Shown one piece after another: positions 2,833 through 31,690 of a DNA stretch of 64,000 nucleotides (position 1 is its first letter; each line of letters begins with the position of its first letter). This DNA comes from Moorella sp. Hama-1 (GTDB lineage Bacteria > Bacillota > DSM-521 > Neomoorellales > Neomoorellaceae). The stretch covers positions 492,501 through 556,500 of the forward strand of contig NZ_AP024620.1 in the NCBI RefSeq assembly GCF_023734095.1, read 5' to 3'. The notes under the pieces were generated by a model, which was not told the origin of the DNA, ran no database searches, and saw only the letters and a program-made list of their open reading frames with translations. Both the position numbers and the translations under genes were made by a program.

Positions 2833-3463
2833 AAAGGACGTTAATTACGCCAGGGGGATAACCATGGGCGCAGCCCAATACAGGCAGGGGGACTGCGAGT
2901 CCCTCGATTTCACGGGCCGCGCCTCCGAACTTATTATGTGCCTCTCGGAAGCGCTGGCCCTTACTACCGGCGCGGCGGCAATCGCCTTATCATGCCACCG
3001 CAAAGTGGCCGGTTCGGCCATGAACAGCTTGTGGTGGTCGGGCATGGTCCGCTGGGTTAATGTCTTCGCCGAAATGGGGCAGTATCAAGGTCAATTCCGC
3101 TTATGGTATCGGGCCGACGCCAGGCCGCCCCGGGACGCCCAGGAAGCATGCCGTCTGGCGGCTTTGGGGCTTTTCTACGCCCTGGCGAAAAAGGAGGTGC
3201 CGGGATTCAAATGGCAGGTAATGAGAAACGGCAAGAATGGTATTTTGGCAGAGATGCAATTCGACAGCAACAGCGGGGCCAACAAATGGCTGATTGACGC
3301 TCCGCGCCGGGACGAAAATCCCCATCCCCAGGCCGACGTTTATATTTTTCCAACTTTGCTAGAAGGAGAAACCCTTACGCCGGCGGGGAAAATGTATACC
3401 GCCGACGAACTGCTCTTTGAACCCGGAGAACTGCGCCGGAAAATTTTTCGGAAAACCCCTTGA
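2792..3463 (+). CDS. Hypothetical protein of the element backbone
   Basis: A 223-residue protein. GTG 2792 is the likely start, because GGGAAGGAGGGG sits just upstream inside the preceding S1-domain gene. No signal peptide or membrane segment is visible. The middle holds LSEALALTTGAAAIALS and a tryptophan-rich stretch (NSLWWSGMVRWVN). The end has VYIFPTLLEGE. I do not recognise a family. Translational overlap with the S1-domain gene suggests coexpression. It is the last gene before the structured gene-free region at 3525-4320. Confidence 0.55.
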   Translation: MHEGSEKKQAVPNKKDVNYARGITMGAAQYRQGDCESLDFTGRASELIMCLSEALALTTGAAAIALSCHRKVAGSAMNSLWWSGMVRWVNVFAEMGQYQGQFRLWYRADARPPRDAQEACRLAALGLFYALAKKEVPGFKWQVMRNGKNGILAEMQFDSNSGANKWLIDAPRRDENPHPQADVYIFPTLLEGETLTPAGKMYTADELLFEPGELRRKIFRKTP

Positions 3464-3572
3464 CGGCTGCCAGACAAACTGCTAATCTTTAATTTAAGAT
3501 AAACTTCCTATACTTTCAACTCCTTGCCTGCCAGGGTACCCTCTCCTGGCACGGGTGGAAGTCCCGGAGCAA

Positions 3573-3779
3573 CTGCCGGCGATGAGCGGGCGGATATGTT
3601 GGCAAGCGAGGTCCTGGGAAAAATTCCTCGTGATGAGCAGGGTGTACTCTCAGGACAGGCGCGTTAGCGATGAGCAGGCGCGCCACATCTCGCGCCATGG
3701 CGATGAGCAGGCGCGGGCGGTGGGACCCAACCGAAATAGCGGGCAAAATGGCACGACCGCCACGGCGATGAGCAGGCGG
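3573..3779 (+). repeat. Five hairpins with a conserved GCGATGAGCA loop
   Basis: The motif (G/C)G(C/T)GATGAGC(A/G)GG occurs at about 3579, 3630, 3667, 3700 and 3765. Four copies sit in the loop of a clear stem: CTGCC/GGCGG (3573-3593), GGCGCG/CGCGCC (3658-3684), CGCGCC/GGCGCG (3691-3715) and CCGCC/GGCGG (3757-3779). The second copy has only a weak stem. The stems differ in sequence but keep pairing while the loop is constant, which points to a repeated protein- or RNA-binding loop. Confidence 0.6.
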
Positions 3780-3899
3780 CGTGAACCGGAAGATGGCCGG
3801 CGCTACAGGTCCGGCCCGTGGGGTAAGCGGTGCAAACCGCAACGGCAGGAAGGTGGACTCTTCCGAGGGCAACCGTAATAACCCCTTGTAAAAAATGTC

Positions 3900-4098
3900 C
3901 TAACCGCCGCAGGCGGGAGCTGACCAACTCCAGTGGCGCTAAAAGTGGGGGGTGGCCTCCCCGACATGAACTGGCTAGCTGCCGATCAAAGGAGAGCCCC
4001 AACCTTCGGCAGTGACAAGAAAGCTGACGGGCTAACCGCCGCAGGCCGGAGAGTGCCCAACTCCAGCGGCGCTAAAAGGGTAGGAGTGGCTGTCCTCA
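3900..4098 (+). repeat. Two diverged 66-base tandem units in element RNA 1
   Basis: Units at 3900-3965 and 4032-4098 share CTAACCGCCGCAGGC, CCAACTCCAG and GGCGCTAAAAG in the same order, with a spacing of 132 bases. Each can form CCGCC(GCA)GG-type, GGAG/CTCC-type and a third G-rich hairpin. The first hairpin also occurs in element RNA 2, at 8615-8627. Confidence 0.6.
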
Positions 4099-4164
4099 AA
4101 TAGACGGGGCAGGGTTGCGCGATCGGGAGCGGTTCACCGGCGCGGCCCGCGAAGAAGGAACCGC

Positions 4165-4232
4165 AATGATATGTACGCCTAATGGCGTACAGGAGAGATA
4201 ATGATATGCACGCCTTATGGCGTGCAGGAGAA
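4165..4232 (+). repeat. Tandem 35-base hairpin units with a compensatory base pair
   Basis: Two units, at 4165 and 4200, each read AATGATATG, a 7-bp stem, a four-base loop and CAGGAGA. The stems are GTACGCC/GGCGTAC and GCACGCC/GGCGTGC. The one difference in the stem is a T-A pair replaced by C-G, with both bases changed. That is direct evidence that pairing is selected. Confidence 0.7.
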
Positions 4233-4254
4233 AATGAAATATTAGCTAAGAAAT

Positions 4255-4318
4255 AAAACACTTTGGCCGACGAAAGCAAGTTAAGCATTACTTGCCAGGT
4301 TAGAGTGTTTTTTGCTTT
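4255..4318 (+). terminator. Rho-independent terminator of element RNA 1
   Basis: AAAACACT (4255-4262) pairs with AGTGTTTT (4304-4311), with an inner stem GCAAGT/ACTTGC, followed by TTTGCTTTT. It closes the structured region on its 3' side. Confidence 0.7.
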
Positions 4319-4327
4319 TGCAAGGCC

Positions 4328-4384
4328 CTCCCACGGGCGCAAGTTTTCAAGCGCCCGCGGGAGAAAACCCCCGGGCGCTTTAAT
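4328..4384 (+). promoter_or_regulatory. Two mutually exclusive hairpins, attenuator-like
   Basis: CTCCC-CGGGCGC (4328-4340) can pair with GCGCCCG-GGGAG (4351-4363). The same GCGCCCGCGGG (4351-4361) can instead pair with CCCCCGGGCGC (4368-4378), which is followed by TTTAATTT. The second form looks like a terminator and the first would prevent it. The region lies 40 bases before the MazF-like operon and right behind the terminator of element RNA 1. Confidence 0.5.
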
Positions 4385-4422
4385 TTAACGAAAGGAGCGT
4401 TCCGGGATGAAAGGGGATTATT

Positions 4423-5043: not shown

Positions 5044-5433
5044 ATGAGCATGAAAGAACGCATCAAGAACGCCAACCGGGAGAGTAGCGGACTGGGCTTC
5101 CTGCGTGGCCGCGAGAAAGGCGACTTCGAGAAGCTAATCGGGCAGGAAGTAGCGTTGGAAAACGCCGCTATTGTCCAGAGTAATTACAATGACGGCGCCG
5201 AAAACGTGATTTTCACCGTCCAGGGCGACAGCCGGCACTATTACCGCTCATGTAGCAGTATAGTCGTCAACGGCTTCAAAGAGATCGCCGAAGGGATCGA
5301 AGAAGAAGGCTTAAGCTGGGATGTAATTGGAGTGACCTTCAGCCGGGGAAAATCAAAGAACGGGCGGGCTTATTACACCGCCAGGTTCCGCGATTTGCGT
5401 TCCAGGGCCGAAGGGGAAGAAGAGGCAATTTAA
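5044..5433 (+). CDS. Hypothetical protein of the element
   Basis: A 129-residue protein from ATG 5044. It starts with a charged helix (MKERIKNANRESSG) and then has strands such as NVIFTVQGD, HYYRSCSSIVVNG and YYTARFRDLRS. There are no membrane segments. The pattern would fit a small beta-barrel, but I cannot name a family. Its last codons (EEAI and stop) are duplicated downstream at 5749, showing that the duplication of the next gene began inside this one. Confidence 0.55.
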   Translation: MSMKERIKNANRESSGLGFLRGREKGDFEKLIGQEVALENAAIVQSNYNDGAENVIFTVQGDSRHYYRSCSSIVVNGFKEIAEGIEEEGLSWDVIGVTFSRGKSKNGRAYYTARFRDLRSRAEGEEEAI

Positions 5434-5478
5434 CCTTGCCAGAATGCCACCGGCGTAATAAGATGGAGGTGAAGGCAG

Positions 5479-5745
5479 GTGATTGCCGTGGAAGAAACCA
5501 AAAAGGAAACGGCATCGGCAGGGGAACCTCCGCACCGTCTGGTGTCGGAAGAGTTTTTCTTCCTGCTAAACCGAATTGACCGGCTGGACGAGAAGATGAG
5601 TGCTGGCTTTAGTGAGGTACGGAAGGAACTTACTGATGTCCGCAAGGAGATCGTGGGTGTCCACCGCTGGTCTTTCGGCCTGCTGGTAACCATGCTGGTA
5701 GGCTTCGCCAGCGTAATCGTCACCCTCGCCTTGGGACTTCGATAG
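5479..5745 (+). CDS. Small C-tail-anchored membrane protein, copy 1
   Basis: An 88-residue protein from GTG 5479 with GGAGGTGA upstream. Residues 25-60 form a charged amphipathic helix (LLNRIDRLDEKMSAGFSEV). The last 22 residues are one membrane segment (GLLVTMLVGFASVIVTLALG) ending in LR. The layout resembles small coiled-coil, tail-anchored phage proteins of the XhlA kind, but the sequence is not diagnostic. It is followed by a near-identical second copy. Confidence 0.6.
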   Translation: MIAVEETKKETASAGEPPHRLVSEEFFFLLNRIDRLDEKMSAGFSEVRKELTDVRKEIVGVHRWSFGLLVTMLVGFASVIVTLALGLR

Positions 5746-5805
5746 AAAGAGGCAATTTAACCTTGCCAGAACGCCACCGGCGTAATATGATGGAGGTGAA
5801 GGCGG

Positions 5806-6051
5806 GTGATTGCTATGGAAGAGACTAAAAAGGAAACGGCATCGGCAGGGGAACCTCCGCACCGCCTGGTGTCGGAAGAGTTTTTCTTCCTGCTGAACCG
5901 GATCGACCGCCTGGACGAAAAGATAAGCGCCAAGCTGGATAGTATGCACAAGGAGATGGGGGGCATCAACCGCTGGGCTTTCGGCCTGCTGGTAACCATG
6001 CTGGTAGGTTTCGCCGGCGTAATCGTCACCCTCGCCTTGGGGCTGCGGTAA
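5806..6051 (+). CDS. Small C-tail-anchored membrane protein, copy 2
   Basis: An 81-residue near-duplicate of the preceding protein; GTG 5806 or ATG 5815 could start it. The first 40 residues and the C-terminal membrane segment are almost unchanged. The middle helix is shorter (KISAKLDSMHKEMGG). Two versions of different helix length could form mixed oligomers, or the copy may be redundant. A terminator follows at 6083. Confidence 0.6.
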   Translation: MIAMEETKKETASAGEPPHRLVSEEFFFLLNRIDRLDEKISAKLDSMHKEMGGINRWAFGLLVTMLVGFAGVIVTLALGLR

Positions 6052-6082
6052 AAGATTAACACGGCATAAGCCGCTAACTATG

Positions 6083-8024: not shown

Positions 8025-8393
8025 ATGGAGAAACAGATCTACTTTGTTGATGACGAACATGAAAGCAACTTTAAAGAGCTATGCGCCAGTGTGAAGAGCA
8101 TGAAAGGTGACAAAGAATACAGGGCTGCGGGTTATATCCTGGCCCTGCCGGAATTGTACCCGAAGGCCAGGCGGTACTTCAGCGACGCCGGCTTCAGGTG
8201 GATCGACCTCTTAAAGAAAGCAGACCTCAGTTCAGGTTACCGCATAATGGTAAACCTGGCGGTGGACCTGTTCGGGGGAGCGACGGACCGGCCGATGTTT
8301 AACGCCGGCGAAGCCATTGCGGTACTGGACACCAAGCTGTACCAGGCCGCCCTGGCGGCAATCCAGGTGAGGAGGCCGGTGAGAACACCTTAA
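8025..8393 (+). CDS. Small element protein, DUF6075-like
   Basis: A 122-residue protein from ATG 8025, probably cotranscribed with the primase-like gene. It begins YFVDDEHESNFKELC and continues with GDKEYRAAGYILALPELYPKA, a pattern I associate with the small phage/plasmid family DUF6075. The assignment is from memory of the pattern and not tested. It has no membrane segments. Its stop is directly followed by the structured region at 8396-9010. Confidence 0.55.
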   Translation: MEKQIYFVDDEHESNFKELCASVKSMKGDKEYRAAGYILALPELYPKARRYFSDAGFRWIDLLKKADLSSGYRIMVNLAVDLFGGATDRPMFNAGEAIAVLDTKLYQAALAAIQVRRPVRTP

Positions 8394-8395
8394 AG

Positions 8396-9010
8396 AGAAA
8401 GGAAGGAGTATTACTCTTTCCCAGGAATAATGAGACGGACGTGTAACGAAGTATTTCCGCAGGCATGGCCGGCCTGCGGGGGCTGCATAAGCCTGAAGGC
8501 CTGATACAGCCGCGGCGCTGTCAAATCGCCGCCAGCCCTGACCCGGCCCTAGAAGGCCGGGTCGCCCCCACGGGGGTAAGGGCTGCTATCTGCCCCGCAA
8601 GCCCAGGGCTTGCACCGCCGCAGGCGGCATGGGCAGTATGAATACTCAACTTAGAAATCGGCGTGCGAGGCCGATGCGAGCTTCGGGGGAAACCGGAGGC
8701 CGCAGCGGCCGGGTGGAACACGCAGACAATCGCATAAAGCGGTAAAACGGGAAACGGCCTTAACGTTGACCGACGGCAGGAGGTAAACGTTAAGGCGGAT
8801 CACCCGGATCGCCGCCGGCCGGTAGGCCGGCGGGGATGCGGGGGCCGGAAACGGGCGCAGCCCGTCTCAGGCCCCCCGGAGGGGGGCACTGAGACGGGCT
8901 AGGCGCCGAAACCGCGAAGCCTCGTAAAATAAGGCAATACGGGAATCGGGAAAAGGTTTTTACCGCAAAAAAACGACGAAACGCATCCCGCTAGGGTGGG
9001 ATGCCTTACA
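8396..9010 (+). ncRNA. Large structured RNA candidate (element RNA 2)
   Basis: About 615 gene-free bases with closely spaced stems. They include CCGCAGGC/GCCTGCGG (8457-8479), GGCTG/CAGCC (8481-8511), and a three-way junction closed by AGCCCT/AGGGCT with CCCGGCC/GGCCGGG and CCCCC/GGGGG arms (8534-8584). A second junction is closed by CTGCCC/GGGCAG with GCAAGCC/GGCTTGC and CCGCC/GGCGG arms (8590-8636). Further stems are ATCGGC/GCCGAT, GCCTTAACGTT/AACGTTAAGGC (8757-8796), CGCCGGCC/GGCCGGCG, a 19-bp hairpin at 8859-8900, and GCATCCC/GGGATGC (8983-9004). It lies between replication and recombinase genes. An RNA is the favoured reading; a DNA origin is the alternative. Confidence 0.55.
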
Positions 9011-9038
9011 TAACTATTACTTTTTTTAGATCGGGGGA

Positions 9039-9524
9039 ATGGCCAGAATGTTGCGCATCCAGTGGAAGCCGACCGGCAATGAAGCTTACGACAGGCTCCT
9101 CGGGCAATTTGTGGAACGGGTGGCCAGGTATGCGCGGGGCGGTTCTATCCAGACGAGAGTGAGGAAGTATGAACGCTACCGCGCCTTTTTACGCTTTTTA
9201 GCGGCGAGGTTCGCACCCCAGGACATCCGCAATATCCAGCCGCGTCATGTAGCGGCCTATATCGCCCACCGCCGCCAGGCGGGGGTGCAGGAAAAGACGA
9301 TCCTGGCCGAACTGTCAATCATCAGGTGGTGGCACAACCAGATCCCCTGGCGCAAATACGAAATGCCGGATAATAAGACCCTGTTTGAACTGGAGGAGAA
9401 ACTGGATGACAAAACGTTCAGCGAAGAAGTCAGGTACCAGTATAAAATCACCCACTCCCGGAGGCGACGGCTTATTTCACAATCTAGAGATCCAGTTCGA
9501 GAAGGTCTACCGGCAGGCCGTTAA
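9039..9524 (+). CDS. Integrase N-terminal (core-binding) domain protein
   Basis: A 161-residue protein; ATG 9039, or ATG 9048 with GGGGG upstream. Residues 10-105 resemble the SAM-like core-binding domain of tyrosine recombinases and are similar to the N terminus of the next gene (TRVRKYERYRAFLRFLAARF against KTHFRYRDSMKKFLSFCATRF). No catalytic domain follows. It overlaps the next gene by 119 bases in another frame, and the last 45 residues are encoded in that overlap. It may be a stand-alone DNA-binding factor, or the front of a longer protein lost by frameshift. Confidence 0.6.
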   Translation: MARMLRIQWKPTGNEAYDRLLGQFVERVARYARGGSIQTRVRKYERYRAFLRFLAARFAPQDIRNIQPRHVAAYIAHRRQAGVQEKTILAELSIIRWWHNQIPWRKYEMPDNKTLFELEEKLDDKTFSEEVRYQYKITHSRRRRLISQSRDPVREGLPAGR

Positions 9525-10368
9525 AGATACCCAGGGCAAGGTCAGCCTGAAGACCCATTTCCGCTACCGGGACAGCATGAAAAAATTCCTCTCATTTTGC
9601 GCCACCAGGTTCCGGCTGCAAAACCTGCGGAATATCAGCGACAAGCACCTGGAGGCTTACATCGACTACCGCCGCGGCAATGAAACCAGCGAGAAAACGA
9701 TCAAAGGCGACCTGGCGGCAGTTAGGTTTTTCCATCGCTATATTGATAGCGCCAGGAACCAGCTTTCCGGCAACGAAAAATTCGGCCTGGCTTCGACACC
9801 GGACGGCCGGGCGGACCGGGCCTGGAGCGACGGCGAATATGAGGGGATGGTAGCACTGGCGGAAAGGTTGGGCCGGCCGGAGGTGGCCCTGGCCCTGCGC
9901 CTGGCCAGGCACGCCGGGCTGCGGGTGCATGAAATCACCCGCCTTTCCCGGAAGGACGCCGAGCAAGCCCTGGCTGACGGCCTGCTGCATGTGAAAGGCA
10001 AAGGCGGGAAAGAACGCGATATCCCCCTGGCGGCGGAAGCGGTTGCGGCCTTAAAGGAAGCCTGTGAAATGGCGGCGGGTGAAAATGACAAACTCCTCGT
10101 CCCCCCGGGGGAAAAGACCCATTTAGTAATTAAGCGGATCCAAAATTTTATCCGCCGGCACCGGGATAAGGTAATGGAATCAGGGAAGGGGGTCAACATT
10201 ACTTTTCACGGCCTGCGGCACGCTTACGCCCGGGAGCAGTTCCGGGTAAAGGTAGGGGAGTTGAAGAAGATAAGGCGCGCCCTGGCGGAGGTTTCGTCAA
10301 GGCTGGGCCACAACCGGCCGGAGGTGACCAGGATTTATTTGGGATCGGAGTGGAAGAAGAGAGGTTAA
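9406..10368 (+). CDS. Tyrosine recombinase / integrase
   Basis: A 320-residue protein from ATG 9406, chosen because GGAGGAG lies six bases upstream. The N-terminal part (to about residue 115) is a core-binding domain. The catalytic domain has all the expected residues: Arg near 173 (HAGLRVHE), Lys near 196 (VKGKGGKERDIPL), the HGLRH box near 268, His near 302 (LGHNRPE) and Tyr near 311 (TRIYLG). It should catalyse site-specific strand exchange. It lies in the middle of the block, far from the spoVR border, so it may serve resolution or a nested element and not the outer integration. Confidence 0.85.
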   Translation: MTKRSAKKSGTSIKSPTPGGDGLFHNLEIQFEKVYRQAVKDTQGKVSLKTHFRYRDSMKKFLSFCATRFRLQNLRNISDKHLEAYIDYRRGNETSEKTIKGDLAAVRFFHRYIDSARNQLSGNEKFGLASTPDGRADRAWSDGEYEGMVALAERLGRPEVALALRLARHAGLRVHEITRLSRKDAEQALADGLLHVKGKGGKERDIPLAAEAVAALKEACEMAAGENDKLLVPPGEKTHLVIKRIQNFIRRHRDKVMESGKGVNITFHGLRHAYAREQFRVKVGELKKIRRALAEVSSRLGHNRPEVTRIYLGSEWKKRG

Positions 10369-11320: not shown

Positions 11321-11398
11321 AGAAGATTGATCATAGGAGCCGTAAGGGCACCGGGAAGTTTTTTCCGGGCCTTTTCTTTTTGGGAGGTGTTTTTAATT

Positions 11399-13396
11399 AT
11401 GTTAAACAAGATAGCTGAAAGTTTCACGGAGAAAGTGGGTAACAAGGGCATAGGGTTGTTTTTGCTGGCAGCAGGTGCTATAACGAGCCTAGCGGTATTA
11501 TACGTTATCGACGTGTGGCTCTTAAGCCCCGTTGCGGCTATTTTCGTTACCGCCTACAAATGGCTGGCCGGGGGCCTGCACGGGCACCCCAATTATACTT
11601 CAGCCTTGTGGTACTTCCAGCACCCGGTGGCAACCGCCAGGGCCTGGCTGGGCGGCCACCTCTCCCAGCCGGAAGTACGTTCCTGGTGGATCGGCCTCAA
11701 TGTTTTCATCTCGGTAATATGGACCCTGCGCCGGATAGCCTGGCATTTTGACTGGGCGATAATCAACGCCACCGGGTTCGGGATAAAGATCAAAAAGGAC
11801 GACGCCACTTACGGCAGCGCCAGGTGGGCCGTGAAAAGCGACCTGGCGCGGGTTTGCGATTTCGGCTTCGGCCCGGGAATAATACTGGGCGCTTTAGGAG
11901 CAGCACCGGTGCGTATCCCCCCTAAACCCAAGACCTGGATGAACCGCCATGTGCTCGTGGTCGGCGCCCCCGGTTCCGGCAAAAGCCGTGGTTACGTCCG
12001 GCCCAATATCTTCGCGGCGGTCCGTTCAGGGGAGAGCGTCCTGGTGACGGATCCCAAAGGCGAGCTTTACCGCAGCATGTCCGGGTGGCTAAACTCAAAA
12101 GGGTACATCGTTAAGGGCTTCAACCTGGTCCAAATGGAACAATCGGATCACTGGAACCCCCTGGCGGAGATCCGGACCCCCTTGGATGCCGACGTTTTTG
12201 CCCAAGTGGTTATCAGCACTACAGAAACCGGGCCGAAGAAAGGTGGCGACGCTTTCTGGGATCGGGCTGAACAGAACTTGCTGAAGGCTCTGGCTCTCTA
12301 TGTCACTACCGAGCTACCTGCGGATAAGCGACACTTTGGTTCCCTGTATGATATACTGGCGGCAGGAGACTTCCAAAGCGTGGATGACTTGTTCACCAAG
12401 CTGCCCCCCGGCCATCCGGCCAAAGGCCCGTATAACGTATATGCCCAGGCCGGCGATAACGTCAAGGGCGGGGTGGTAATTGGTTTGGGCACAAGGCTAC
12501 AGGTGTTCCAACAGGAGATGGTGAGACGGATTACCTCTGACACCCATATAGACCTGACGTTACCCGGCAAAGAAAAATGCGCCTACTTCATCATTACGCC
12601 GGACACCCATGGCGCTTTTGACTTTTTGGCATCGCTTTTGTTTACCTTTTTGTTCGTCCGTTTGGTGGAGCTTGCCGATACATCCCCTGGCGGCCGGTTA
12701 CCGGTGCAGGCCAGGTTCCTCCTGGACGAGTTCGCCAATATCGTTAGCATCCCGGAGTTTGAGAAGAAGATCGCCACTGTCCGTAGCCGCGGCATCGACT
12801 GCCATGTTATCGTCCAGAGCCTGCCCCAACTGGAAAGGAAATACGGGCGGACCTGGGAGGAATTAATGGCGTGCTGCGATACCAAGTTAATTATAGGGGT
12901 CAAGGACGATACCACCGCCCGTTACGTAAGCCGCATGCTGGGGGAAAGTACCGTTGAAACCAGGAGCGCTTCCAGGGAGGTTAACCCCTTGTGGGGGCAG
13001 GACTTGTTTGATAATCGTCGCAGCATTGGTGTTACCGGCCGGCCGCTGATGACTCCCGACGAGGTTCTGAAGATGCGTTCCAAGTTTTGCGTAGCATTTC
13101 TCCCCGACGGCACACCGCCGGCCAGGTTGAGGGTACTGGATTATGAGCAGTTCCCGGAAGCGAAGGAGTTGAGGAGAATTTTGGTTGTGGTAAAAAAAGA
13201 AGAAGAAAAGGAGTCAGGTACCAGTATAGATGAGTTTAACGAAGGCGGGGTTGAGGGTTACCATGATCCCAAGGATCAGAAACTTATAGAAGATGGGGCA
13301 GAAAAGGTGACGGAAGAAAATATACTCGAAGTAGGGGATGAGGTTATAGAGATTGAAAATAGCACGAGTAGCGGGAAAACCGTTGTCCCGTGGTAA
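11399..13396 (+). CDS. VirD4/TraG-type conjugative coupling protein
   Basis: A 665-residue protein; ATG 11399 is preferred because GGGAGGTG lies upstream. Three N-terminal hydrophobic segments (about residues 18-40, 45-62 and 95-115) anchor it in the membrane. The ATPase has Walker A GAPGSGKS near residue 188 and Walker B FLLDEF near 442, followed by RSRGIDCHVIVQSLPQLERKYG, typical of type IV coupling proteins. The family brings the relaxase-DNA complex to the mating channel. The C-terminal tail is acidic and more AT-rich. It is the clearest sign that the region is conjugative in origin. Confidence 0.92.
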   Translation: MLNKIAESFTEKVGNKGIGLFLLAAGAITSLAVLYVIDVWLLSPVAAIFVTAYKWLAGGLHGHPNYTSALWYFQHPVATARAWLGGHLSQPEVRSWWIGLNVFISVIWTLRRIAWHFDWAIINATGFGIKIKKDDATYGSARWAVKSDLARVCDFGFGPGIILGALGAAPVRIPPKPKTWMNRHVLVVGAPGSGKSRGYVRPNIFAAVRSGESVLVTDPKGELYRSMSGWLNSKGYIVKGFNLVQMEQSDHWNPLAEIRTPLDADVFAQVVISTTETGPKKGGDAFWDRAEQNLLKALALYVTTELPADKRHFGSLYDILAAGDFQSVDDLFTKLPPGHPAKGPYNVYAQAGDNVKGGVVIGLGTRLQVFQQEMVRRITSDTHIDLTLPGKEKCAYFIITPDTHGAFDFLASLLFTFLFVRLVELADTSPGGRLPVQARFLLDEFANIVSIPEFEKKIATVRSRGIDCHVIVQSLPQLERKYGRTWEELMACCDTKLIIGVKDDTTARYVSRMLGESTVETRSASREVNPLWGQDLFDNRRSIGVTGRPLMTPDEVLKMRSKFCVAFLPDGTPPARLRVLDYEQFPEAKELRRILVVVKKEEEKESGTSIDEFNEGGVEGYHDPKDQKLIEDGAEKVTEENILEVGDEVIEIENSTSSGKTVVPW

Positions 13397-17012: not shown

Positions 17013-17264
17013 ATGATTGGCGCCATGTTATGGCAATTACGGAAACAGCAAAATTATTCCTTGCGGGCACTTGCCCAGGCGACTGGGCTTTCGCATAGCT
17101 TTATTTGTGACGTTGAACATGGCCGTAGCAATCCATCCATCGAAACTTTACAGGTGCTAGCCCAGGCATTAGGCGTAACGCCAGATATTTTTTTCAAAGA
17201 CGATCTCTTAGAAGAAACGCAGCCGGACCAAAGGCCCTTAAAAAGAACTCAGTCAGTTAATTAA
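17013..17264 (+). CDS. Small XRE-family regulator
   Basis: An 83-residue protein from ATG 17013, chosen for AAGGAGGT upstream. Nearly all of it is a Cro/C1 helix-turn-helix (LRALAQATGLSHSFICDVEHGRSNPSIETLQVLAQALG). Its recognition helix SHSFIxDxExGRSxPS is almost the same as in the divergent repressor at 16323-16778, so both may read the same operators and compete, like Cro and CI. The acidic tail has no recognised function. Confidence 0.8.
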   Translation: MIGAMLWQLRKQQNYSLRALAQATGLSHSFICDVEHGRSNPSIETLQVLAQALGVTPDIFFKDDLLEETQPDQRPLKRTQSVN

Positions 17265-17344
17265 AAGGTATTGCGTTTATATTCGCCGTTTCGTGTTCCA
17301 TATCCTTCCAAGGTAAAAACAAAAGCTCCAGGGAGAGGATCAAA

Positions 17345-17881
17345 ATGCTGGAGCAGCGCTATATAGGCGTAGTATGCCCATCGGGAAATGTCAAAAACCT
17401 CGGGGGCCGGCCGCTCCTGATAGACCTTGAGAAGCTTAAAGAGCTCCATGCCGCGGGGATGACCGATGCTGAAATAGCCAGCGAGTTGGGGGTTAAACGC
17501 AATACAATAGCCATGGCCCGCAAACGCCTGGGGCTAACTGCTAACCGGAAGGTTGGCGAACATGGTGGTACCACTCAAAGGTCTAGCAATGAAGAAGAAG
17601 CCGCGCTCGTGGCCTGGATGCAATACCAGCAGGCCGTCAACGCCGCCGAAATGTCTGCCAGGAAGGTGCAGGTAGGCGGCGGGGACTGGCTGAGGTGGGC
17701 CGGCAGCGCCTATGAACTGGACGGTAACCGCAATAAGTACATATGTACCTTAGACCCCACCAGCCGGCCGGCGGACCTGCCATTAAGAATATCAGCAATG
17801 GGTAATTTTCCTGCCGCCAGCGGGTTTAAGAAAGGTAAGGGCGGCGGGAAAAATCCTCTCCCAATAAATATGCCGGGTTAA
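17345..17881 (+). CDS. DNA-binding-like protein with a helix-turn-helix
   Basis: A 178-residue protein from ATG 17345. Residues 22-62 (LIDLEKLKELHAAGMTDAEIASELGVKRNTIAMARKRLGL in short segments) form a resolvase/GcrA-type helix-turn-helix preceded by GGRP. The rest is low in recognisable features and ends in a glycine/lysine-rich tail. It lies between the XRE genes and the serine recombinase, to which it converges. A regulatory or recombination-accessory role is possible but not shown. Confidence 0.55.
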   Translation: MLEQRYIGVVCPSGNVKNLGGRPLLIDLEKLKELHAAGMTDAEIASELGVKRNTIAMARKRLGLTANRKVGEHGGTTQRSSNEEEAALVAWMQYQQAVNAAEMSARKVQVGGGDWLRWAGSAYELDGNRNKYICTLDPTSRPADLPLRISAMGNFPAASGFKKGKGGGKNPLPINMPG

Positions 17882-30864: not shown

Positions 30865-31515
30865 GTGCGCCGAGCCAAGCTCGGATTATGCTCGTGGGCT
30901 GAAAAATGCCCACCGCGGTAATTTCCCGTTCGCCGCGAAGTCTGAGGCAGGCGGGCAGGGGTAACCCGAAACGTCAAGCTGCCTGACAAAGGTCCGCAAG
31001 GATCGAGACGGGAGGGGCGGGCCGTAACGCAAGTAAACCCGAGGTGGCCTCGAAAACGCAGTTGCTGCTGGCGACCTTGCCCCACAATGGGGAAGCCTGA
31101 CATCCGCCGTGGAGCAACGGGCTGGCTCAAGGCACCGGTAGTTGAACCAGGCGGACCCCGGCAAGGCAAGAAGAACCAGCAGGGAACGCCCCAGGGAGGG
31201 CCTTTATCACCTTGCTGGCCAACGTATATCTGAACAAGCTGGACTGCTACTGGTATAGTGCCCAGGGGCCGTACGTTAAATATAACGCCCGCCTGGTACG
31301 TTACGCCGATGATTTTTGCTGGCCCGCTATATTGGGAAACCGGTACAGGAAGCCGTAGAGGAAACCATTGCTGCTCTAGGACTAACCTTAAACCGGGAGA
31401 AGACCCGCATCTTTAACCTTCGCGCCGGAGAAGAGTTGAACTTCCTGGGATACACCATTAACATGTGGAATACCCGCCACAGGTCCGTTCAACTTAAACC
31501 CAGCCACAAGGCCTA
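30865..31515 (+). mobile_element. Degenerate group II intron
   Basis: GTGCGCCGAGCCAAGCTCGG at 30865 has the GTGCG 5' end and first stem of bacterial group II introns. The next 300 bases are GC-rich and stem-forming (for example AATTTCCCG and CGAGACGGGAGGGGCGG segments typical of domain I). A broken reverse transcriptase frame follows from 31183. No convincing domain V or 3' splice site is found, so the 3' end is lost. It lies directly behind the tRNA cluster. Confidence 0.65.
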
Positions 31516-31516
31516 G
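31183..31516 (+). pseudogene. Group II intron reverse transcriptase, remnant
   Basis: Pieces of the polymerase domain appear in three frames: GTPQGGPLSP, then LLANVYLNKLDCYWY, then ARLVRYADDF with the catalytic YADD box, and finally ARYIGKPVQEAVEETIAALGL, REKTRIFN and ELNFLGYTI. At least two single-base frame changes separate them. The N-terminal part and the maturase (X) domain are absent. It cannot make an active enzyme. Confidence 0.85.
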
Positions 31517-31587
31517 GTTGTACATTTTGCAGGAAAAAGAGATTTTGTGTCGAATATCAAATAACGAACGGAAAACGTTACCCTTTC

Positions 31588-31690
31588 CCCAAGGGCAAAC
31601 CTTCCGAAAGGGAGGGACGCAAAGTCATGGGTCTAAGGCTGTAGCTATGATTGCCAGACTGCCGGGATTTCCTCTGGCAGCCTTTTTAGG
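31588..31690 (+). promoter_or_regulatory. Cyclic-di-GMP-I (GEMM) riboswitch with terminator
   Basis: The aptamer core is visible as GGCAAACC, CCGAAAGG, GGGACGCAAAG and GGGTCTAAGG, the GEMM-I consensus. It closes with GATTGCCAG near 31650-31658. The expression platform is CTGCC (31659-31663) pairing with GGCAG (31676-31680), then CCTTTTT. The chemoreceptor gene follows 125 bases later, so motility signalling appears to be set by cyclic-di-GMP. Whether ligand turns it on or off is not read from sequence. Confidence 0.88.

Follow-up and report, generated by a model that had tools for sequence, protein, structure and literature searches.

Why does a stretch of DNA that holds no genes fold so strongly directly ahead of a tyrosine recombinase gene in Moorella sp. 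Hama-1, and is it RNA or DNA that takes up the fold? The stretch lies within a window of 64,000 nt (the whole of the DNA analyzed here). The original prediction placed it at positions 8396 to 9010 and proposed that it was a functional structured RNA or a structured DNA site. Covariation, synteny, the structure-based detection of remote copies, and the lack of a match to any known RNA or intron strongly support this proposal.

Position, edges, and fold of the structured element

In full, the structured element, be it RNA or folded single-stranded DNA (ssDNA), spans ~630 nt of the + strand (8396 to 9028). It is flanked upstream by a DUF6075 gene (8025 to 8393) and downstream by a recombinase-like gene (9039 to 9524). 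Its description as gene-free was borne out, as positions 8396 to 9010 contain no open reading frame (ORF) of at least 80 amino acids on either strand. These coordinates also proved to be good. Similarity to the copy in genome G004 runs from ~8392-8396 to a T tract at 9021 to 9027, and because homology there begins just past an upstream gene unlike the one in Moorella sp. Hama-1 and ends with the T tract, the edges of the element can be placed at ~8396 and 9027. The element is as conserved between these two genomes (90.5%) as the neighboring coding DNA (87 to 90%).

The minimum free energy (MFE) of the 615-nt stretch on the + strand was −324.1 kcal/mol, versus −251.6 ± 5.8 kcal/mol in shuffled sequences (z = −12.5; fold z scores were computed against dinucleotide shuffles), and the minus strand also folded strongly (z = −12.2). 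All of the stems named in the original prediction were located. At the 5′ end, the MFE structure has a hairpin (8401 to 8421) at the upstream edge of conservation, where G004 homology starts. Two three-way junctions follow, each with two hairpins and linkers of 1/1/3 nt: junction 1 (8534 to 8584; stem AGCCC/GGGCU), which recurs in 13 homologs with differing arm sequences, and junction 2 (8590 to 8636; stem CUGCCC/GGGCAG), which was used in covariance model R1 and in the pair counts described below. Both had been predicted with perfect arms, and both are present; among the named structures in general, the arms fall slightly short of perfect in places. A conserved single-stranded motif, AAUACUCAAC (8641 to 8650; approximately RNURCUNAAC), stands 2 to 6 nt past junction 2 and is found, with variants, in 13 of 13 homologs.

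Downstream of this motif, a core stem (8661 to 8723; GCGUG/CACGC) carries a conserved GAGG and GGA internal loop and then RGACA, and it supplies helices 4 and 5 of the covariation analysis. The predicted stem-loop at 8757 to 8796 (GCCUUAACGUU/AACGUUAAGGC) is present with 15-nt arms (8757-8771/8782-8796) and is restricted to Moorella-type copies. The stem listing gives a GC-rich hairpin at 8803 to 8842. Next comes a long hairpin (8859 to 8900) that had been described as 19 bp long; its 19-nt arms (8859-8877/8882-8900) were confirmed, but they are 89% complementary and thus short of perfect. Its lower part, CCGUCUCAG (8862 to 8870) with CUGAGACGG (8889 to 8897), is invariant across the main group, its upper part covaries, and in remote copies different paired sequences take its place. 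The 3′ portion contains a GGUUUUU...CAAAAAAAC element (8955 to 8974), found by alignment and inspection to recur in homologs, and a 3′ hairpin with a U tract (8983 to 9027) that is terminator-like but not textbook. A U-rich tract is similarly placed in the homologs inspected. Two further candidates were discarded. AAUACUC could pair over a long range with GAGUAUU or AGUAUU close to the window's 5′ end, but this pairing is broken in homologs, and a reading of the CCGTCTCAG inverted repeat as a recombinase core site was rejected because its spacer varies.

Searches with Rfam covariance models at gathering and permissive thresholds gave no credible match at the element or in its homologs. Known RNAs and introns (OLE, GOLLD, ROOL, group I and II introns, and STAXI) were ruled out on the basis of the Rfam gathering thresholds. 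Nucleotide searches of plasmids and phages with the element returned no matches. A promoter scan of the element and a terminator scan at the 3′ hairpin and U tract found none, and both scans were uninformative.

Homologs, covariation, and the tandem three-way junction

Close homologs, 86 to 91% identical, were found in four genomes from this organism's small class, with carriers that include Moorella mulderi (L049/L052) and a Clostridia metagenome-assembled genome (MAG) (L051). Distant relatives were located by using the downstream core-binding-domain-only (SAM-only) protein as a query, and they include Desulfofundulus thermosubterraneus, a Desulfovirgula MAG, and a Peptococcaceae MAG, among others. 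Homologs in Moorella, Desulfofundulus, Desulfovirgula, and other Clostridia lie directly upstream of the same tyrosine recombinase genes. The hairpin pattern CCGTCTCAG-N-CTGAGACGG occurs in exactly 9 of 113 genomes of the class, which are also the nine that encode close SAM-only proteins; a backward-pattern control gave 0 matches. In viral contigs, the pattern matched for the most part a single unrelated phage hairpin and sites attributed to chance, and these matches were set aside.

MAFFT placed the hairpins of distant copies wrongly, and a covariance model (R1; junction 2 and the core stem) was therefore built from three Moorella-type copies alone. R1 recovered remote copies at the syntenic spot with E values of 8e-11 to 0.07, with background starting at E values of ~7. 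A sequence-only model built from the same alignment scored far below the structure model (14.9 versus 34.0 bits for L057 and 24.0 versus 48.6 bits for L064) and missed L063 and L067. The resulting alignment was fitted to the structure by the covariance model itself, a caveat on its pair counts; in it, 19 of 27 pairs showed compensatory (double) changes, and 96.2% of cells were paired, a level reached by 0 of 500 shuffles, versus 32 to 48% in slid controls. The comparative searches and folding that the original prediction had called for thus yielded remote syntenic copies, no known RNA or intron, and a secondary structure conserved with covariation, as expected of a large structured bacterial noncoding RNA. 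A second model, R3, detected copies outside its training set (in G457, G015, and G435). Across 398 genomes of the phylum, all R3 matches with E values of <1e-3 were elements with this recombinase; another match in G015 (C25; E = 0.013) lies away from the recombinase and was taken as chance.

The tandem three-way junctions (8534 to 8584 and 8590 to 8636) are the hallmark of the element. Both recur in 13 copies, with linkers of mostly 1/1/3 nt and a separation of 0 to 8 nt. When the 125 nt upstream of the RNURCUNAAC motif was folded without constraint, the tandem junction appeared in 10 of 13 homologs versus 2 of 2,600 shuffles; in the window copy (Moorella sp. Hama-1), both junctions appear when the full region is folded. 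Over 13 lineages, six helices comprised 430 Watson-Crick, 16 G-U, 2 A-C, and 9 other cells, a pairing percentage that is partly by construction because the helices were picked by eye; the positional constancy and the shuffle result are unaffected by this choice.

Several copies have been rearranged. The element in G457 (L129) is decayed; a VirD4-like fragment comes after the 5′ half of its structured region, and the SAM-only and recombinase genes are gone. G004 carries an ISL3-family insertion (L047:15306-16741) that separates the structured element from the recombinase genes and sits exactly in the U tract, with target duplication ACTTTTTT; the recombinase gene of G004 has an internal stop (TGA). 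At L049:14021-14605 in M. mulderi, the element's 3′ end and the beginning of the SAM-only gene resemble another lineage, which suggests recombination at their junction.

Recombinases of the same family (31 to 45% identity) are also encoded on Bacillota plasmids typed as nonmobilizable. An unannotated gap of 0.5 to 1.6 kb lies upstream of the recombinase gene in 11 of 11 plasmid records, which alone proves little because the plasmid gene table is incomplete. Sliding-window fold z scores went down to −10.7 in the Brevibacillus plasmid and −9.4 in the Natranaerobius plasmid, and R3, run without filters, ranked the expected spot in Brevibacillus (E = 0.009), Vallitalea (E = 0.05), Sutcliffiella (E = 0.12), and Natranaerobius (E = 0.3). 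Local folds contained the tandem junction in the Brevibacillus, Sutcliffiella, and Natranaerobius plasmids (3 of 11), versus 2 of 70 shuffled regions. In most plasmids, the longest inverted repeat lies ~110 to 320 nt upstream of the recombinase gene and has a related GTCTC-like core. Plasmids other than the three with tandem junctions show a long hairpin in the corresponding place and junction-like folds by eye and are candidate members. In the Vallitalea plasmid pVpro, typed as nonmobilizable, approximately five repeats resembling GGGTGTCTAAAGATTAGACGATACCC stand in tandem ahead of the junction (L144:5060-5560), and a VirD4 gene of the CD1115 family comes after the recombinase gene.

The host element and its closest precedents

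The first 19.4 kb of the window is part of an integrative and conjugative element (ICE) of ~60 kb. Its genes encode a VirB4-like ATPase, an M23/SLT hydrolase, Tad/type II secretion system-type pilus proteins, an actin-like protein, a DnaD-like protein, a topoisomerase, RadC, a DUF3854 protein, the SAM-only protein, the tyrosine recombinase, VirD4, and a large serine recombinase. No Pfam relaxase family was matched among the scanned proteins of the element. The SAM-only protein (9039 to 9524, + strand; PF12834/PF02899) is recombinase-like. The tyrosine recombinase (9385 to 10368, + strand; PF00589) is XerA/integron-integrase-like and combines PF02899/PF12834 with PF00589 in one protein, so that it has a core-binding domain of its own; its true start is probably downstream of 9385, and integron integrase and IntI4 are among the proteins that it matches weakly. 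A VirD4-like coupling protein of the CD1115 family is encoded at 11327 to 13396 on the + strand (NF045973; E = 2.6e-125). A VirD4 gene lies after that for the recombinase in Moorella, Desulfofundulus, G460, G461, and Vallitalea and is absent from the next ~5 kb in G434, G435, G422, G427, G194, and G015.

The window has other features of note. A second noncoding region, element RNA 1 (3460 to 4420; fold z = −2.8), contains approximately five GCGAUGAGCAGG-type repeats in hairpins and is conserved, with 75 to 87% identity in Moorella and 69% over 934 nt in G453; it and the structured element both recur in related elements. A small ORF occurs in two tandem copies at 5420 to 6053 (p5479/p5806), with a copy number that varies among related elements. 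Near both ends of the element, ~60 kb apart, are near-identical segments of ~540 bp with a GcrA-like ORF (17218 to 17759 and L118:16412-16950). Downstream of a tRNA cluster, the region at 30895 to 31667 has a match to group II intron domains D1 to D4 (30895 to 31032) and a c-di-GMP-I-GGC riboswitch (31585 to 31667).

The structured nucleic acid, core-binding protein, tyrosine recombinase, and VirD4 form a module that resembles the mobilization module of SGI1, since the host is an ICE with VirD4, a VirB4-like ATPase, and no Pfam relaxase. SGI1 has the tyrosine-recombinase-like, presumed relaxase MpsA, the core-binding-like MpsB, an oriT, and the essential sgm-sRNA (PMC9299015, PMC6414798), and with the same kinds of parts, it is the closest working precedent. 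In SGI1, a noncoding RNA and an oriT lie upstream of a tyrosine-recombinase-type gene in an integrative element; the corresponding place here holds a structured, conserved region that is a candidate RNA or oriT. In both, a tyrosine-recombinase-family gene adjoins one for a core-binding domain alone. SGI1 differs in bacterial group and in the order of the two genes, whereas the Moorella-type recombinase retains its own core-binding domain, its fold is ~600 nt long with tandem junctions, and VirD4 is encoded alongside. For TcpM of pCW3 and MobK of pIGRK, a structured noncoding stretch likewise closely precedes the tyrosine-recombinase-type gene, and for MobK this stretch is a 456-bp region with oriT (PMC8152469), but both proteins lack a core-binding domain, and no conserved RNA is reported in the cited work on them. 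Because it keeps this domain, the Moorella-type recombinase lacks one defining feature of the MpsA/TcpM/MobK relaxases; it may work like them without belonging to the group. OLE (~600 nt), GOLLD, and ROOL are likewise large, ornate noncoding RNAs of bacteria and mobile DNA, but the present element has no Rfam match and its partner gene encodes a tyrosine recombinase. In the STAXI motif, structured repeats stand in tandem close to genes for integrase, topoisomerase, and antirestriction proteins (PMC2864571), but those repeats are tandem pseudoknots.

RNA partner, folded ssDNA, or leader

The structured element is real and, it appears, undescribed. Because its shape is kept beside the same recombinase gene and has no Rfam match, it is probably an unrecognized working part of the movement or maintenance of its mobile elements. 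As to the folded strand, G-U outnumbered A-C mismatches (11:4 in one count and 16:2 over 13 lineages), and 19 of 26 regions folded better on the + strand than expected, which is weak evidence for that strand. This bias fits RNA and ssDNA alike. The low share of G-U pairs (3.6%) speaks for DNA or for a thermophilic RNA and keeps DNA plausible.

We tentatively favor a reading in which the + strand fold is an RNA partner of the downstream tyrosine recombinase, in a module that probably starts ICE DNA transfer. The element would most likely be transcribed as a noncoding RNA of ~600 nt, with a constant core of tandem three-way junctions, RNURCUNAAC, core stem, and long hairpin. The role of an unorthodox relaxase would fall to the tyrosine recombinase, whose binding the core-binding-only protein would aid, and the RNA, together with an oriT lying within this stretch or close to it, would assemble or license the complex, so that transfer could begin in an ICE without a Pfam-recognized relaxase. 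Against RNA and transfer, we count the lack of a detected promoter, the nontextbook 3′ end, and the low G-U share; against a relaxase-like role, we count the core-binding domain that MpsA, TcpM, and MobK do not have. A role in transfer may not be general because six lineages lack VirD4 within ~5 kb after the recombinase.

The main rival, possible but on balance unlikely, is that the fold forms in ssDNA, as an oriT or T-strand structure, a single-strand origin, or an attC-like site bound by the neighboring recombinase. The very stable hairpins with short loops, the few G-U pairs, the invariant lower arms of the long hairpin, the strong folding of both strands, and the weak matches to integron integrase and IntI4 would all suit such a site, and the oriTs of tyrosine-recombinase-like relaxases closely precede the relaxase genes (PMC8152469, PMC6414798). 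However, an ornate 600-nt fold far exceeds the cited oriTs (125 bp in SGI1; a 456-bp region in pIGRK), the spacers between conserved arms are too variable for a recombinase core site, and the 3′ edge bears a U tract. That tract, a short way ahead of a ribosome-binding site, and the unvarying strand and location directly upstream of the recombinase genes would also suit a long cis-acting leader RNA governing transcription or translation of the recombinase operon. We consider such a leader doubtful: the element is larger and more complex than known leaders, and the ISL3 insertion in G004 parts it from the genes, yet the fold is retained at 91% identity in that copy, which may itself be decaying because its recombinase carries a stop. 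Still more improbable is a tyrosine recombinase that requires RNA, in which the tandem-junction RNA would bind, direct, or assemble the recombinase on DNA in ICEs and small plasmids of Bacillota, a functional parallel to IS110 bridge RNAs or IS605 omega RNAs. Thermophile GC-rich DNA folds readily, but a functionless GC-rich region or degenerate repeat is scarcely credible given the z score against dinucleotide shuffles and the remote homologs detected by structure, low-GC plasmids included; covariation and the frequency of tandem junctions in homologs relative to shuffles refute a chance fold.

The precise double-junction shape persists through turnover of its arm sequences and is found next to a single recombinase lineage, both in ICEs and in cryptic plasmids that have been typed as nonmobilizable. 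This points to an undescribed nucleic acid component in the DNA processing of mobile elements and offers a hypothesis for how transfer may start in conjugative elements without a recognizable relaxase. It would possibly be a second case, after SGI1, of an element whose transfer needs an RNA.
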